Of a DNA stretch of 34,669 bases, positions 16,889 to 34,669 are shown piece after piece. The stretch's first letter is position 1. Every line of letters starts with the position of its first letter. A program made the translations under genes and the position numbers. The notes beneath the pieces are model-generated. The model worked only from the letters and a program-made list of their open reading frames with translations, did no database searches and was not told where the DNA came from. The DNA lies in contig CALRAI010000009.1 of NCBI GenBank assembly GCA_943350635.1, forward strand, positions 1-34,669, read 5' to 3'. Source of the DNA: Candidatus Uhrbacteria bacterium (GTDB taxonomy: Bacteria; Patescibacteriota; Patescibacteriia; UBA9934).

Positions 16889-17899
16889 CTACTCTCCGTT
16901 CGTCAAGAGAAGCTTATTTGCACGAACATAATCAATCGTTTTCGCCAAACCATCTTCCAAACGGACCAACGGAATCCAGCTTAAACCATTTCGAGCCTTT
17001 GTTAAATCCGGCAGTCCCATTTGTGTCAGAAAGAGTGGAGCAGCTTCATACACAATTTCCGAAGAACTTTCTGCAATTTTGATAATCTGCCCAGCAACGT
17101 CTCTCATTGGCAACTCAACATCACTTCCAATATTCACTGGACCAATAGTCGGCTCCGCACGCATCAGACGAATTAAACCATCAACAACATCCGAAACATA
17201 CACCAACGACGTTGTAGTTGCTTGATCGCCTGAAATCGCCAACGGTTTATTGTCGAGTGCAGACAAAACAAAATCAGGAATCTGATGCCCTTGGAACAAC
17301 GGCATTCGTGGACCAAACGTTCGGAAAATACGCGCAATCTTTGCGTCCAGCGTATGGACTGACGCGTAGGTATTCACCATGGTTTCTGCAAATCGTTTTC
17401 CCTCATTATACGCAGCGCGTGGCGTAAGATGATTCACAATACCTTGATACTCCTCCGCAAATAACTTCGATTCTGCGGTGCGATTTCCATATACCACCGC
17501 ACTCGATGCCAACAAAAACTTTGCCTTGTATTTCACCGCAATATCGAGCATGTTTCGTGTACCCACACTATTCGTGAGTAGCGTAGCGATACGATATTCC
17601 TCAAATCCCTTCGACACCGTGGGCATAGCCAAGTGATACACCTCGTGTACACCAATAAATTTCACCTTGAATGCCTCAAGCTCCGCAAAGGAACCAAGAT
17701 CGAACGATTCATTCACGTCGATACGAAGAAATTGAAAATCTGGATTTCGCAACAACGTTTCAATATTCCGAACATGACCAGTGGAAAAATTATCAATACA
17801 AATAACGCGATGACCATCGTTGAGCAATGCTTCGCAAAGAAACGAGCCAATAAACCCCGCACCTCCAGTAACGACGGATGTTTTTTGTTCTAACGACAT
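16889..17899 (-). CDS. NAD-dependent nucleotide-sugar epimerase/decarboxylase (UDP-xylose synthase-like)
   Basis: An extended short-chain dehydrogenase of 336 residues. TGGAGFIGSFLCEALL at 11-26 binds NAD, DNFSTG at 36-41 recognises its ribose, SSAVVYG at 132-138 is the serine/threonine catalytic strand, and Y164-NEG-K168 is the catalytic pair. The sequence YNEGKRFAE is close to the YDEGKR signature of UDP-glucuronate decarboxylases, and RIFRTFGPRMPLFQGHQIPDFVLSAL also fits that family better than GalE. It would make UDP-xylose or a related UDP-sugar in the cytoplasm. GalE-like epimerase activity remains possible. The start lies only nine bases after the base of the large structured element that fills the upstream gap; no Shine-Dalgarno site is visible. 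Confidence 0.87.
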   Translation of the reverse strand: MSLEQKTSVVTGGAGFIGSFLCEALLNDGHRVICIDNFSTGHVRNIETLLRNPDFQFLRIDVNESFDLGSFAELEAFKVKFIGVHEVYHLAMPTVSKGFEEYRIATLLTNSVGTRNMLDIAVKYKAKFLLASSAVVYGNRTAESKLFAEEYQGIVNHLTPRAAYNEGKRFAETMVNTYASVHTLDAKIARIFRTFGPRMPLFQGHQIPDFVLSALDNKPLAISGDQATTTSLVYVSDVVDGLIRLMRAEPTIGPVNIGSDVELPMRDVAGQIIKIAESSSEIVYEAAPLFLTQMGLPDLTKARNGLSWIPLVRLEDGLAKTIDYVRANKLLLTNGE

Positions 17900-17907
17900 A
17901 GATATTT

Positions 17908-18031
17908 TGAGACGCCCTCATTTGGCCTCTTTTCAACTTGTCGCGGCGTCGACTCACTCAACGTACAATGAGTACGTCTCGCGAGCTCTCCTTGCTCCGC
18001 GTTGAAAATAGTCCCAAATGAGAACGTCTCA
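17908..18031 (-). ncRNA. Candidate structured RNA, copy A
   Basis: The 137-nt gap between the subtilisin and UDP-sugar genes is nearly filled by one fold. On the minus strand the outer stem pairs 18014-18031 with 17908-17925, 18 pairs of which two are G-U. A second stem pairs 18001-18008 with 17930-17937 (core CAAC/GTTG). An apical hairpin pairs 17972-17985 with 17953-17966 around a five-base loop and contains a tandem GA/AG mismatch. The internal loop on the 5' side holds AAGGAG (17988-17993). The same core and fold occur at 33195-33319 with different stem sequences. Function is unknown; it could be the leader of the downstream gene, the end of the peptidase mRNA, or an independent RNA. Confidence 0.65.
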
Positions 18032-18036
18032 TGATA

Positions 18037-20160
18037 TTACCACCCTGCAAAAAATGCACCGGTCTTTGCGCCAAACGTTGGCGCATTCCATGAACCGAGC
18101 GACGTTTTTCCATCGGACGACATCATGGATACCAAACCACTATCCACATTTTCACTCACCATCATATCATCTCTTCCATCCAGATCGAGATCGATACCAA
18201 CAACACGGTCTCCGCTGAGCGCCTGCGCAGAAAATGTTACCGCACCACGAACCGCACCAATCTTCGTAACCTCGTTCACCACATTTCCCGATCCCAAATT
18301 CGCAACAAATATATCCTCAATATTATCGCCATCACGATCCCCACCAGAAACGCTCACCATCGATGCTCCTACAAACGGCACAAAGTCGACGAGATATTTT
18401 CCGTCGTTGTCGTACACTGCAACGTGTACAGCTCCGTCGATGATTCCCGTTACTGCAACTTCGCGAGCGGCGTCGTCGTCAATATCCACCGTAGAGACAG
18501 AAAGCGCAGAAGATGCGGGAAAGACGGAAGCGGCAAAGCGAAATATTTCAGAACCCTTCTCGCTCCACACAACAATATCCTGGCTTACATTGGATCCGAC
18601 CGCAGTAACAATATCGTCCTCACCGTCTCCATTCACGTCTCCCGTTACAAGAGAAACACCATGGCTCGATGTTTTGTCGTACGCAAAGAATTCGGAGAAC
18701 AAGGCGCCAAATGCCTTAAACACTCGAACATGTGGACCGCCAGATTCACCGGCGCCCGTGACAATCTCAGGAATTGTGTCATGGTCATTATTGATGGTAG
18801 CAACATGCACACCACCATGAAAATTGCTGGAATACGCTGCAAAAGTGGCATATTCCGAGCCATCAGCCCTACGCACATCCACCATTGGCGCAACACCTTC
18901 TGGCGCACCAAACACAGCAAACGAATACTTCAAAACATCATCCGTTGTCGCAACCACATCGGATTTCGTAGACGTATCAGACGTTACATCGTCAGAATTC
19001 GTCGTTGTCGTGGTTGATGGTGTAGTTGTCGTCGTAGTCGACGGCGTTGATTCTGCAGAGTCCTCAACCGCCGGAACATAGGAGACTGCTAATGCCAATG
19101 CACGATCCACATTCAATCGCCCCGCACCAAGCTCCCCGGTAAGATATCCACGAATACTCACTGGATCCACCGAAAGCTTAATAATATTTCGAACATCAGT
19201 CGCGGTAAGCGTTGGATATCGGGAAAATAACAACGCCGCAGTACCAGCCACCAGTGGAGATGCCATAGAAGTACCGCTCCATCCCCCAAGATATTTATCA
19301 TTGTAGCCCTGAGCAGGGCCATGATACGAAAGACCGTAAATATTTGTGCCTGGCGCAGCAACGTCCGCACAAATCGTGCCGTAGTTGGTAAACGATGCAC
19401 CACGATCGCTACTATCCGTAGCCGTTACACCAATCACCCAATCATCGTCCGTTGTGCGCAAACATGCGGGATACACCGGATTCATGTTTGTGTCTCGATT
19501 ATCATTTCCCATTGCCGCCACAATCACCACACCATTTGTAAACGCATCCTTCACAGCACTCTTTAGCGACGAATGTGCTTCGTCCCCCGCAAAGCTTAAG
19601 TTGATTACCTTGGCGCCATTCTTCCTGGCATACGTAATGGCGCTCGCCGCATCAAACTCTGTACCACTACCCTGATCGTCCAACATGCGCACCGGCATGA
19701 TTTTTACATTCCACGCCACGCCAGACACGCCAAGATGATTATCGCCAACTGCACCAATCTCTCCTGCAATAAGCGTGCCATGGTCGATAGCCTCCGACGA
19801 CGACGTGCTTACCGGACTTGGCGAAGGATCGTTATCGTTCCCAATAAAATCCCAACCATGAACGTCATCGATATACCCGTTCCCATCATCGTCCTTCCCA
19901 TTATCTGCAATTTCCCCAGCATTCGTCCAAAGATTATCAACAATATCCTCATGATCAAGATCGAGTCCCGTATCCAGCACAGCCACAATAACCGTGGAAG
20001 ATCCTGTAGTGGTATCCCAGGCATTCGGTGCCTGAATACGATCAAGATACCATTGCTCGTTGTACTTTGGATCGCTGGGAGTTTGCGCAAGCACAAGGGA
20101 AGGCAGAAGCACACACAACATTCCAACACAAAAACCACGAGACAATAGACGATGGGACAT
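18037..20160 (-). CDS. Secreted subtilisin-like serine peptidase (S8) with C-terminal FG-GAP/VCBS-like repeats
   Basis: A 707-residue exported protease. Residues 1-26 are a signal peptide (FCVGMLCVLLPSLVLAQ). The catalytic triad is visible: Asp63 in AVLDTGLD, His127 in DHGTLIAG and Ser298 in SGTSMASP, with oxyanion Asn219 in MGND. DNGKDDDGNGYIDD at 86-99 is a calcium-type loop. A threonine-rich linker (about 368-400) leads to a beta-propeller-like region with repeats such as TINNDHDTIPEIVTGAG and TGDVNGDGEDDIVTAVG. I start at ATG 20160 rather than the GTG at 20181 because the signal peptide then has normal form. A TGAGATACT sequence 11 nt upstream could be an extended -10, giving a very short leader. 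Probable role: processing surface proteins such as the neighbouring S-layer-like protein. Confidence 0.92.
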   Translation of the reverse strand: MSHRLLSRGFCVGMLCVLLPSLVLAQTPSDPKYNEQWYLDRIQAPNAWDTTTGSSTVIVAVLDTGLDLDHEDIVDNLWTNAGEIADNGKDDDGNGYIDDVHGWDFIGNDNDPSPSPVSTSSSEAIDHGTLIAGEIGAVGDNHLGVSGVAWNVKIMPVRMLDDQGSGTEFDAASAITYARKNGAKVINLSFAGDEAHSSLKSAVKDAFTNGVVIVAAMGNDNRDTNMNPVYPACLRTTDDDWVIGVTATDSSDRGASFTNYGTICADVAAPGTNIYGLSYHGPAQGYNDKYLGGWSGTSMASPLVAGTAALLFSRYPTLTATDVRNIIKLSVDPVSIRGYLTGELGAGRLNVDRALALAVSYVPAVEDSAESTPSTTTTTTPSTTTTTNSDDVTSDTSTKSDVVATTDDVLKYSFAVFGAPEGVAPMVDVRRADGSEYATFAAYSSNFHGGVHVATINNDHDTIPEIVTGAGESGGPHVRVFKAFGALFSEFFAYDKTSSHGVSLVTGDVNGDGEDDIVTAVGSNVSQDIVVWSEKGSEIFRFAASVFPASSALSVSTVDIDDDAAREVAVTGIIDGAVHVAVYDNDGKYLVDFVPFVGASMVSVSGGDRDGDNIEDIFVANLGSGNVVNEVTKIGAVRGAVTFSAQALSGDRVVGIDLDLDGRDDMMVSENVDSGLVSMMSSDGKTSLGSWNAPTFGAKTGAFFAGW

Positions 20161-20190
20161 AGATTGGTTCCAGTATCTCACTGAAAATCC

Positions 20191-31166: not shown

Positions 31167-31270
31167 CCTAGATTACCGCATCGTGATTACCCTCTTCGCA
31201 AAGACGAAAGGATCGACTCCTACACCAGTCATTGCGAGGAGAATGTAATCATTCGACGTGGCAATCTAGG
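31167..31270. repeat. REP-like inverted repeat pair at the 3' end of the GIY-YIG gene
   Basis: Left arm 31167-31204 (CCTAGATTACCGCATCGTGA...) and right arm 31228-31270 (...CGACGTGGCAATCTAGG) form a long imperfect hairpin. The right arm also supplies the TAG stop of the GIY-YIG gene and is the inverted partner of the copy at 31563-31602. It fills most of the gap between this gene and the GT4 gene. Confidence 0.8.
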
Positions 31271-31629: not shown

Positions 31630-33162
31630 TCATACAATCCCCTCCTTCTTCCCCATCCCCACTACCGCTCCCCCCATAATCCATAAGTACGGAGCAAGGG
31701 TTCGCGCTTCAAGGAACGTGGCGAGTAATGCGTTCACTGCAACGGCCAGCATAGTGGCAGCAACACCAAGCGCAAGGGCACGAATTTCGGGATCGGAACT
31801 TTCACGATAGATCCGCATGCACGCTGCAAACAAACTCAGATACATCACAAGGTACGCACCAAGTCCGAGCGTTCCAAGCTCGCCCCACATACTAAACCAA
31901 TTGTTGTCGATATACCCCTCTGTGCCATACACACCAAACGGCAAACCAAGGCGGTCGTACACCTCCGTATTCCCAAGCGCGGCAACAGCTCCCCCGCCAT
32001 ACGTTCCCGGACCATGACCAAACAATGGCGCAGCAGGCACCACACTATATGCCGTTTGCACCAACCAATACACACGACCTAAACCATAATATTCCCCTTG
32101 CCAACGGGCATACGAAAACGCTTCAAAAAAACGATCAGTGAACGACTGGCTTCGCGAATCAATAAGTTGGTTAACAACAAGTCCTGTAACCGACAAATAC
32201 CCAAAAATCATGAGTGCACCAATTCCTGTAGCCAAAAACACGCGCTTGTCGCGTTTCACCCACAGCGCAATAAAAAAGAACGCAAACGCAAAACCAAACC
32301 AGGCCGATCGGGAATACGCCAAACCGACCACAGGAATAGAAAAGAAAAGAATAAGCCACGCTGGAAGCTCCCGATGCTTCTCAATCACCCGTTCGTACAG
32401 CAATGCAACCAAAAGAATTAAGAAAAATGCCATGAATGTGCCAAGCTGATCGTATCTGCCAAGCGTACCGAACACCCGTTCACCAGGATCCCAAAATTGC
32501 GTGGTGCCCGATGTAAGTTGTAGCGAACCCAATGTGTGTTGCGACGACGGAATCAAAAACAAATCCAACGGCTCGCCAATAACCCGTTGTGCATAACCAA
32601 GACCAGCCTGGATAGCAACAATCACGAACATAATCGTGAGCAGCTTTTTAATCACCGCCTTACTTGGTGCCAAATATGCCACAACAAAAAAAAGCAGAAC
32701 AAAACGGAAAATTTGCCGCAGACCAAGAATGGCAAACCACGGATTTACCGTATTCACCACACAAGAAACCAGCGCAAGAAACACCACCACACAAAACGCA
32801 ATATCGAGTGGCGTTCGTTGAAATTTGATGGATCCGGAAAACATGCGCCACATCACCACCGAGAGAAGAAGATACACAACGAGTTCGGATCCGTATCGTG
32901 CAAACACATACACGTCATCCGGAATCCACTTCAGTAAAAACGGTTCAAAAGGAAGATACGCCGCAAAAGCAACCAACGTCCACGTAGGCTTCGCGAAGGT
33001 AAAAACAATACCGATAATCACAAGCACCGCGGCAACAACGAGCGTTGATGAGAAAAAGATTGTCCCAAGAAATCCCAAACCCAAAAGCACTGTTAAACCA
33101 ATAAAGGCCAACCGCGCCTGCTCTTCAGAAGCACGATACAACGAACGAAAATTGGGAATCAT
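31630..33162 (-). CDS. O-antigen ligase/polymerase family membrane protein (WaaL/Wzy-like)
   Basis: A 510-residue protein with about 11-12 membrane segments. The large extracytoplasmic loop at about 350-420 contains RWQGEYYGLGRVYWLVQTAYSV and FGHGPGTYGGG, followed by IDNNWFSMWGELGTLGLGAYL: the H-G-P-G-T-x and D-N-x-W-F/E-x-G-x-x-G motifs are characteristic of the Wzy_C/WaaL family, whose members join or polymerise lipid-linked glycans on the outer face. ATG 33162 is chosen over 33189 because a TG-T-TATACT extended -10 lies 6 nt upstream, so the longer ORF would overlap the promoter. It may attach the glycan made by the neighbouring enzymes to a surface protein or lipid; the acceptor is unknown. 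Confidence 0.88.
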   Translation of the reverse strand: MIPNFRSLYRASEEQARLAFIGLTVLLGLGFLGTIFFSSTLVVAAVLVIIGIVFTFAKPTWTLVAFAAYLPFEPFLLKWIPDDVYVFARYGSELVVYLLLSVVMWRMFSGSIKFQRTPLDIAFCVVVFLALVSCVVNTVNPWFAILGLRQIFRFVLLFFVVAYLAPSKAVIKKLLTIMFVIVAIQAGLGYAQRVIGEPLDLFLIPSSQHTLGSLQLTSGTTQFWDPGERVFGTLGRYDQLGTFMAFFLILLVALLYERVIEKHRELPAWLILFFSIPVVGLAYSRSAWFGFAFAFFFIALWVKRDKRVFLATGIGALMIFGYLSVTGLVVNQLIDSRSQSFTDRFFEAFSYARWQGEYYGLGRVYWLVQTAYSVVPAAPLFGHGPGTYGGGAVAALGNTEVYDRLGLPFGVYGTEGYIDNNWFSMWGELGTLGLGAYLVMYLSLFAACMRIYRESSDPEIRALALGVAATMLAVAVNALLATFLEARTLAPYLWIMGGAVVGMGKKEGIV

Positions 33163-33194: not shown

Positions 33195-33319
33195 TCGAAT
33201 GGTTTTATTTTAGACCAGTTTCGGTGCGCAAGGAGCAAAGTTCGTGAAACGTACTTCTTGGTACGTTGAACGAATTTGCGAAACAGCAAGCCGAAAATGG
33301 ACAAAATAAAATCATTCGA
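33195..33319 (+). ncRNA. Candidate structured RNA, copy B
   Basis: On the plus strand 33195-33211 pairs with 33303-33319 (17 pairs, one G-U). A second stem pairs 33215-33225 with 33290-33300 (core CGGT/GCCG, one mismatch). The apical hairpin runs from 33235-33254 to 33261-33279 around a six-base loop, with the same tandem GA/AG mismatch as copy A (G246-A247 against G268-A269). AAGGAG lies at 33230-33235. It lies upstream of the ligase gene but is read away from it, so it is not that gene's leader. The fold and core match 17908-18031; the stems differ in sequence yet still pair. Confidence 0.65.
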
Positions 33320-33397: not shown

Positions 33398-34669
33398 TCA
33401 GTCGATGACGCTATCGCAGTCGTTATCGATTCCATCCACGACTTCCGTCGCATCCGGGTTGATCGCTGCATCGGTGTCATCGCAGTCGGCGTCACCTTCG
33501 ACGTACCCGTAGGTCTCGTAGATTGCCGTCTCCAAACACGACATCGGATCCGTGCACCGCGTGGGATCACCGAAGGTGTCCCCGTCACCATCGACACACA
33601 TGAGAACCAGATCCTCATCGACACTGCCATCGCAGTCATCGTCTGCGCTGTCGCACGTCTCCGGTGCGCCAGGATACACGCTCATACTCGTGTCATCGCA
33701 ATCCGTGTCGTCCACCACGTATCCAGCCGGAGCCGAACACGCATCGTCCGTCACGGAAGCATCGCCGTAGCCATCGCCGTCGTTGTCCAGGTAGAACGTG
33801 AGCTCTACGCCTTCATCCGTAGCGCCGTCGCAGTCGTCGTCCATGCTGTTGCACGCCTCGGTCGCTCCGGGGTAAACCGAACCGCTCGAGTCGTCACAGT
33901 CCGTGGAGTCAACCACGTGCCCAGCCGGTACTCCGCTGCAGGTACTGGTCGAGCTTGCGCTGTTCCCGTACCCATCGCCGTCGTCGTCCAGGTAGTAAGT
34001 GACGCTGAGGCCGTCGTCCACCACGCCATCGCAGTCGTTGTCGTCGCCGTCGCAAACCTCGGGTTCGCCAGGATTCAAACTGGCATCACCGTCATCGCAA
34101 TCATCGCAGACCTCGTAGCCATCGGCATCGTAGTCGCCGTCGTCCGAGGCGCCCGAACAGTCGTTGTCCTTCCCGTCGCACCATTCGATGTTCCCGGGGT
34201 AGATGTCGTTGTCCGAGTCGTCACAGTCCGTGGCGTCTGCCGTGTAGCCCGAAGGCTCCGTGCAGTAGGCGATGCTGATGGATGCGTTGCCGTAGCCATC
34301 GTTGTCCGCATCACGGTACCAATCCAGCGCATCCACGGCACTGTCGTCCACGCTGCCATTGCAGTCGTCGTCCACGCTGTTGCAGATCTCGAACTCGCCC
34401 GGGTTGACGCCCGAGTCGCTGTCGTCGCAGTCCGTGTTGTCCGCCGTGGTACCCGAAGGCGCCCCGTCGCACGTGCTGCTCGACACGGTCGAATCCCCGT
34501 ACCCGTCGCTATCCGCGTCCGCGTAGTAGCTCGTGAAGGCCAACCCTTCGTCCGTGCTGCCGTCGCAGTTGTCGTCCACATCGTTGCAGCTTTCGCTTTC
34601 CGACGGGTTGACGTTCGCGTTGCTGTCATCGCAGTCCGAGGAGTCGGTGCTGTAGCCGGCACCGGGATC
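33398..34669 (-). CDS. MopE-type aspartate/cysteine-rich repeat protein, C-terminal fragment
   Basis: The reading frame is open to the right edge and ends at 33398, giving 423 residues of about eight imperfect repeats of 45-60 residues. Each has the form TDCDD..(5)..VNPG/YPG-x-x-E-x-C-N/D-x2-D-D-D/N-C-D-G-x2-DEG, then YY-x-D-x-DGYG, the pattern of the putative metal-binding MopE repeat (known from Myxococcota and other bacteria with high-GC genomes). Paired cysteines and calcium-type DxDxDG loops suggest an extracellular protein. The visible GTG at 34579 is internal; the true start is outside the window. GC is clearly higher (roughly 60% or more by eye) than the about 45-50% elsewhere, and codon choice is quite different. 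The fragment may not belong to this genome. Confidence 0.88.
   Translation of the reverse strand, partial: DPGAGYSTDSSDCDDSNANVNPSESESCNDVDDNCDGSTDEGLAFTSYYADADSDGYGDSTVSSSTCDGAPSGTTADNTDCDDSDSGVNPGEFEICNSVDDDCNGSVDDSAVDALDWYRDADNDGYGNASISIAYCTEPSGYTADATDCDDSDNDIYPGNIEWCDGKDNDCSGASDDGDYDADGYEVCDDCDDGDASLNPGEPEVCDGDDNDCDGVVDDGLSVTYYLDDDGDGYGNSASSTSTCSGVPAGHVVDSTDCDDSSGSVYPGATEACNSMDDDCDGATDEGVELTFYLDNDGDGYGDASVTDDACSAPAGYVVDDTDCDDTSMSVYPGAPETCDSADDDCDGSVDEDLVLMCVDGDGDTFGDPTRCTDPMSCLETAIYETYGYVEGDADCDDTDAAINPDATEVVDGIDNDCDSVID

Follow-up and report, generated by a model that had tools for sequence, protein, structure and literature searches.

Two hairpin elements in the window

The window, the whole stretch of 34,669 nucleotides of Candidatus Uhrbacteria DNA analyzed here, contains two intergenic gaps that are each occupied by a long hairpin. 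The first gap is bounded by the stop codon of a subtilase-like gene (18037-20181, minus strand) and the ATG (17899) of a gene for a NAD-dependent epimerase (16889-17899, minus strand), and the second gap extends from a MopE-like gene (33398-34579, minus strand) to an O-antigen-ligase-like gene (31630 to about 33162, minus strand), the neighbors having been assigned with Pfam. The second hairpin, copy B, is antisense to both of its neighbor genes. The features of the two copies are the following.

17908-18031, minus strand: copy A, hairpin element of 124 nt (match to covariance model R1 of 106.8 bits, partly circular because the copy is in the model; MFE z -9.0)
18015-18031, minus strand: 5' arm of the outer stem (17 bp) of copy A, from the fold; the stem ends as in most copies
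17908-17924, minus strand: 3' arm of the outer stem (17 bp) of copy A, from the fold
17960-17978, minus strand: apical hairpin of copy A, GACGTAC-loop-GTACGTT, with a tandem G.A motif at its flank, from the fold (tandem G.A in 113-121 of 121 copies)
18033-18038, minus strand: AATATC, 5' copy of a possible target-site duplication, 1 nt off copy A; a single case that could be chance
17901-17906, minus strand: AATATC, 3' copy of the same possible target-site duplication, 1 nt off copy A; a single case that could be chance
33195-33319, plus strand: copy B, hairpin element of 125 nt (R1 match of 140.3 bits, partly circular for the same reason; MFE z -9.3)
33195-33211, plus strand: 5' arm of the outer stem of copy B, from the fold
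33303-33319, plus strand: 3' arm of the outer stem of copy B, from the fold
33248-33267, plus strand: apical hairpin of copy B, AACGTAC-loop-GTACGTT, from the fold

Both hairpins are present where an earlier, sequence-only reading of this DNA had placed them, and they fold about nine standard deviations better than shuffled sequences: the MFE of copy A on the minus strand is -64.1 kcal/mol against -34.0 kcal/mol for the shuffles, and that of copy B on the plus strand is -55.5 kcal/mol against -24.9 kcal/mol, with no shuffle as stable in either case. The core and the order of the stems that this reading had described are indeed common to A and B. Its statement that the outer stems of A and B have no sequence in common requires qualification, given the weak consensus RRRAC...GTYYY / ATTTG...CAAAT that is found across the family, and the 17-18 bp that it gave for the outer stem come down to 17 bp, after which the stem ends in most copies, with 0-2 bp more by chance. 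The absence of a corresponding Rfam family was borne out: the window has no match in Rfam 15 at or above the gathering threshold, and at a relaxed E-value there is no match over the elements in five loci, copies A and B included. Between minus-strand genes, the window contains another stable hairpin of ~102 nt (31168-31269, z -6.0), half of the sequence of which is repeated in a genome of the same genus (G004) and in a genome of genus g18 (G031); it is an unrelated dispersed repeat.

A dispersed family in Candidatus Uhrbacteria and related genomes

Candidatus Uhrbacteria (Patescibacteria) are known from freshwater metagenome assemblies, and the window's own genome, denoted here G000, comprises 949 kb. 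The pattern derived from the core, with which the family was first found, occurs at 12 places in this genome, compared to none for the reversed control, and an alignment of 12 copies, A and B among them, was used to build the covariance model R1. In G000, this model detects ~41 core copies, in both orientations and on many contigs, and besides these, weak antisense matches and a related second subclass. The family has relatives in the majority of genomes of the order; copies were found in 45 of 60 relatives, including all four genomes of the same genus (G001-G004), one of which, G004, has 63 sites in 784 kb. In genomes of other families of the order, there are hairpins that share the plan and the length of 121-130 nt but differ greatly in sequence. 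Across the phylum, 286 other genomes were sampled, and five of them gave matches below 1e-7 whose plan is similar; these distant matches may be homologous or convergent. The exact core pattern is absent from IMG/VR, so carriage by phages is not supported, the element has no match in plasmids, and our search of the literature found no description of it.

The second subclass combines the same apical hairpin with a CTAGGAG/CGACAAC core and an outer stem of greater length, the ends of which resemble tRNA terminators (A-tract, GC stem, T-tract). In G000, it is represented at L083 1544-1665, L084 1581-1703, L085 1660-1781 and, twice, L073 (1085-1207 and 1262-1384), and similar elements are present in G004 (L094, L100, L123 and L087). 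The members of this subclass adjoin tRNA genes or the 3' end of tmRNA, with a distance of 0 nt in L084.

Conservation of a one-strand fold

The length of the element is nearly fixed, at 121-130 nt. The middle stem opens with an invariant TTT/AAA and is followed by an internal loop in which GCGCNNGGAG stands opposite GACGCNGCAAG; then come the inner stem, a tandem G.A step and the 7-bp apical hairpin (RCGTAC...GTACGTY). A sequence-blind scan of G004 for hairpins with 16-bp outer arms produced a sharp peak at 124-127 nt, with 15 loci in the 125-129 bin compared to 0-2 in the neighboring bins. Tandem G.A steps at 39-40/86-87 and 52-53/74-75 are present in 113-121 of the 121 copies, and G32.A95 is present in 120 of them. 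The position adjoining the latter pair, 33.94, is never a standard pair but occurs in two states, C.A in 87 and A.G in 34 of the 121 copies, with a third state absent and about three joint changes on the tree. One copy (L082 1517-1669) carries an extra 28-nt palindrome inside its 3' half, with a CAAGCC duplication and the rod fold intact.

Covariation is observed throughout the stems. Among 12 copies, 96.3% of the cells in the alignment are paired and changes on both sides are found at 29 of the 47 pairs, and when the partner is slid by 1-3 columns, pairing falls to ~32-42%. Among 125 copies, 95.8% of the cells are paired, double changes are found at 40 of the 47 pairs, and there are 1010 doubly changed cells compared to 280 in shuffles. 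This alignment had been fitted to the structure, and the test was therefore repeated on a MAFFT alignment made from sequence alone, against a tree-aware null in which the substitutions of each column were placed on a FastTree tree. With the cut-off of E<=0.05, 27 column pairs were significant, all 27 of them in the predicted helical register, and the non-canonical pair 33.94 was among these. At ten loci that are syntenic between G000 and G004, we counted 45 compensated double changes and 25 one-sided changes kept as wobble, along with 16 broken pairs and 4 broken on both sides. The compensatory changes that had been noticed between A and B alone are thus real and become far stronger with more copies.

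The two strands of the element are not equivalent. The MFE of the sense strand is lower than that of the antisense strand in 108 of 109 copies (means of -61.8 and -48.1 kcal/mol, respectively), and at the model pairs of 121 distinct copies, G-T outnumbers A-C by 380 to 53, or by 130 to 51 when three conserved wobble sites are excluded. The argument from G-U pairs that had been made for the two copies accordingly holds for the family, and because the sense strand folds better and G-T exceeds A-C, it is a single strand that is selected rather than a symmetric DNA cruciform. Taken together, these data support a structured family not described before, which shows genuine covariation, has a preferred strand, and is under selection for the fold of that strand, double compensations at syntenic loci included. 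The recurrence at fixed positions of tandem G.A pairs, of G.U wobble pairs and of a non-canonical pair with two states implies that it is the folded single strand, probably in the form of RNA, that is selected. An exchange between C.A and A.G fits the trans Hoogsteen/sugar-edge isostericity of RNA. The changes at 33.94 therefore fit RNA, single-stranded DNA being possible as well, and we infer that selection acts on RNA and not on single-stranded DNA.

Mobility of the element

Among the five genomes of the genus, copy A is present only in G000 and is absent at the same site in G001-G004; in G003, the gap reads TGGTAATTCACATCTATG. The locus of copy B exists in three states: G002-G004 have no element there and show a leaderless-type promoter; G001 carries a different copy, inverted relative to copy B, which lies in sense and separates the -10 box from the start codon; and G000 has copy B itself, antisense and located upstream of the promoter. 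At the sister loci of window position 33162 (L178, L179 and L181), the leaderless-type promoter, with a TATAAT-like box 7-8 nt before the ATG, is kept in the genus. Further sites that are occupied in G000 lack the element in G004.

Recent copying is apparent in G031, where copies that are 97-100% identical, the outer stem included, are found at unrelated sites. When direct repeats within 4 nt of the element ends were counted in this genome, repeats of at least 5 nt were found to flank 8 of 32 copies, compared to 1.07 expected, and none of 500 shuffles reached 8. In the window's genus, there is no excess of target duplications, repeats of at least 5 nt flanking 3 of 109 copies compared to 2.2 expected, which is the expected outcome if the copies are older; in copy A, AATATC is found 1 nt from each end, which may be chance. 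Orphan half elements are absent from G004 but for one remnant, and the empty sites of core copies contain no palindrome from which the outer arms could stem. These observations establish dispersal, recent copying in one genus, and gain and loss at syntenic sites. The possibility, raised together with the sequence-only reading, that A and B are copies of a simple mobile repeat therefore stands in part: the family is dispersed, mobile and multicopy, but the label of a simple mobile repeat does not apply, since conservation concerns the fold rather than the end sequences. The suggestion of a single-locus intergenic sRNA is not supported for such a repeat.

Given this combination of features, copies A and B probably represent an ERIC/MITE-like, non-autonomous, dispersed mobile element in which the fold, not the end sequence, is conserved. 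Under this scenario, an element of ~125 bp would insert into intergenic gaps by an event of the staggered-cut type, with a target duplication of ~5 nt, and would be moved in trans by separate machinery. Its sense strand would fold as one long rod that consists of a 17-bp outer stem of free sequence, the middle stem, an asymmetric internal loop, the inner stem and the 7-bp apical hairpin, and in which the tandem G.A pairs occupy constant positions. The fold may be kept both because the mobilizing machinery or a protein partner reads the shape and because copies inside tRNA and mRNA transcripts must form a closed rod that leaves the neighbors undisturbed. More tentatively, and with considerable doubt, one could envisage a new class of mobile element that is recognized as a folded RNA of fixed size, the shape of which, not the sequence, is conserved across an order or more of the Patescibacteria, and that either is moved in trans or doubles as a host-selected RNA at many tRNA and mRNA boundaries.

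Small mobile repeats normally are recognized by conserved end sequences, whereas the sequence of this element drifts almost freely while its length, the one-strand fold, the tandem G.A and even a non-canonical pair are kept, in genomes of ~1 Mb that have little spare DNA. The unusual trait is that shape is kept rather than sequence, with RNA-type detail. If the selected form is RNA, a mobile repeat would be linked to an RNA partner, and the biochemical question becomes which partner binds a rod of 125 nt whose G.A steps are fixed. For the genomics of Patescibacteria, a ready covariance model becomes available, and many unannotated hairpins beside tRNA and protein genes are explained.

Position relative to genes

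The elements could also be host-beneficial structured RNAs (a site for an RNA-binding protein, a processing or stabilizing leader, or an sRNA) that multiply and turn over, each copy being selected in place. We consider this explanation unlikely, although several lines of evidence are compatible with it, starting with the compensatory changes at syntenic loci. In five of the ten syntenic pairs of G000 and G004, conservation of the element clearly exceeds that of the 5' flank, e.g. 94% vs 50%, and in four it is lower, and part of this pattern could reflect replacement of one copy by another. The five pairs, together with the near absence of decayed copies, suggest a function in place beyond that of a selfish repeat. 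Furthermore, in G004, with gene boundaries taken from a simple longest-ORF caller, a boundary lies at most 9 nt from the 3' end in 30 of the 63 copies and from the 5' end in 4 (P 1.7e-7), and 19 of the 63 copies abut the end of a tRNA or the tmRNA (P 2.8e-10). In G031, however, the trend at the 3' end is weak (13 vs 6, P 0.1), and no tRNA bias is seen. The orientation of the copies also speaks against selection of a host RNA: the 63 copies of G004 include 23 antisense, 19 sense, 15 divergent and 6 convergent ones, so that the 42 copies between co-directional genes are almost evenly divided, 19 sense to 23 antisense, and such a distribution argues against a general function as leader or terminator. 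In addition, there is no promoter logo at a fixed distance upstream of the copies, only AT-richness, and copy A and many others are absent from sister genomes. The consistent sense orientation upstream of genes that would characterize a cis-regulatory leader is not observed, and the proposal that copy A is a cis leader for the UDP-sugar gene is not supported in view of the 19 sense and 23 antisense copies and of the absence of copy A at this site in G001-G004.

Known repeat systems and the search for a mobilizing enzyme

The closest parallels to the mobile element that we favor come from known bacterial repeats. ERIC (RU-1) and YPAL (RU-2), with 127 bp, are long imperfect hairpins, non-coding and dispersed between genes, for which the mechanism of transfer is unknown (PMC2759123); the Uhrbacteria element is of similar length, also forms a stable stem-loop, and is likewise intergenic, dispersed and non-coding. 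ERIC, however, was found by sequence and is reported to have TA ends and TA target duplications (PMC2759123), whereas the ends of the Uhrbacteria element vary freely yet stay paired, its duplications are ~5 nt where visible (G031) and undetectable in the window's genus, its fold shows RNA-type covariation, and copy B has no similarity to any of 5,426 E. coli genomes. Membership in ERIC thus fails on ends, duplication length and sequence. With MITEs, the element shares the small size, the absence of coding capacity, inverted ends, target duplications, and presence or absence between strains; however, the ends of MITEs match an autonomous transposon, whereas no convincing partner with the ends of the Uhrbacteria element was found in 965 kb of G031, and it is the whole element, a conserved rod with internal non-canonical motifs, that is retained, not the ends alone. 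Like REP and REPIN sequences, which are accompanied by RAYT (Y1) genes, the copies are strand-specific hairpins dispersed between genes, but REP sequences, short and given as 20-40 bp in one account (PMC3733652), have a conserved tetranucleotide, and Y1 genes do not track with the Uhrbacteria element. Integron attC sites similarly combine variable sequence with a conserved one-strand fold; their ends, RYYYAAC...GTTRRRY, do not match those of the element, NRRRAC...GTYYYN, and they are found in cassette arrays whereas the copies of the element are dispersed.

The attC sites, IS200/IS605 and REP hairpins are precedents for a DNA-level element in which a folded single strand of DNA is recognized and RNA is irrelevant. 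Strand-specific folding and conserved mismatches would suit a single-stranded DNA substrate as well, the element is mobile, and Y1 transposases are encoded in 10 of the 15 genomes tested; nevertheless, we regard this possibility as quite improbable. Y1 genes are absent from G001, G008, G011, G045 and G059, all of which carry copies, and the Y1 genes of G000 and G004 are not near copies by coordinates, so a Y1 transposase that does not track with the element was rejected as its mover. Insertion of the IS200/IS605 type makes no target duplication, unlike the insertions in G031, the attC end motifs are unmatched, and the C.A to A.G exchange fits the isostericity of RNA.

Movement as a retroposon by a reverse transcriptase was rejected, too, because RVT_1 is missing from G001, G008, G011, G021 and G047, which carry copies; G001, G008 and G011 lack both Y1 and RVT_1. 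In two genomes (G031 C3 52171-53130 and G000 C31 4546-5812), a copy is found downstream of a reverse transcriptase gene, at a distance of a few hundred bases, which may be chance given the density of copies. No transposase or autonomous parent was found, the 965 kb of G031 containing neither convincing orphan ends nor a full-length parent, and no transposase flanked by a pair of copies was seen; an autonomous parent could exist elsewhere or have been lost. The idea that the outer arms serve as guides was dismissed, given that 1 of 126 arms had 15-nt matches at other places in the genome compared to 0 in the control.

It is highly implausible that the structure is under no selection at all and that template switching (quasi-palindrome correction) in replication maintains the complementarity of the arms: such a process would account for outer arms that vary freely yet remain complementary, but it would remove the G.A mismatches and the three wobble positions, all of them conserved, that are kept in most or all of the 121 copies, and the strand asymmetry contradicts it as well. 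Intrinsic transcription terminators, which might be suspected in stable hairpins located in gaps and in a second subclass with A/T-tract outer ends beside tRNA genes, can be practically dismissed considering that only 6 of the 63 copies in G004 lie in convergent gaps, compared to 15 in divergent gaps and 19 directly upstream in sense, that the core copies lack a following U-tract, and that the sense copy of G001 is located between the -10 box and the start codon.

The missing palindrome at empty sites has one exception, in the second subclass. At L073 1262-1384, G000 has a second-subclass element, and the corresponding place in G004 (C3, about 62,573) is occupied by a short hairpin in which the outer arms of this element enclose a GCAA loop, an arrangement that looks like the outcome of insertion of the element into a terminator loop or of its deletion from there.
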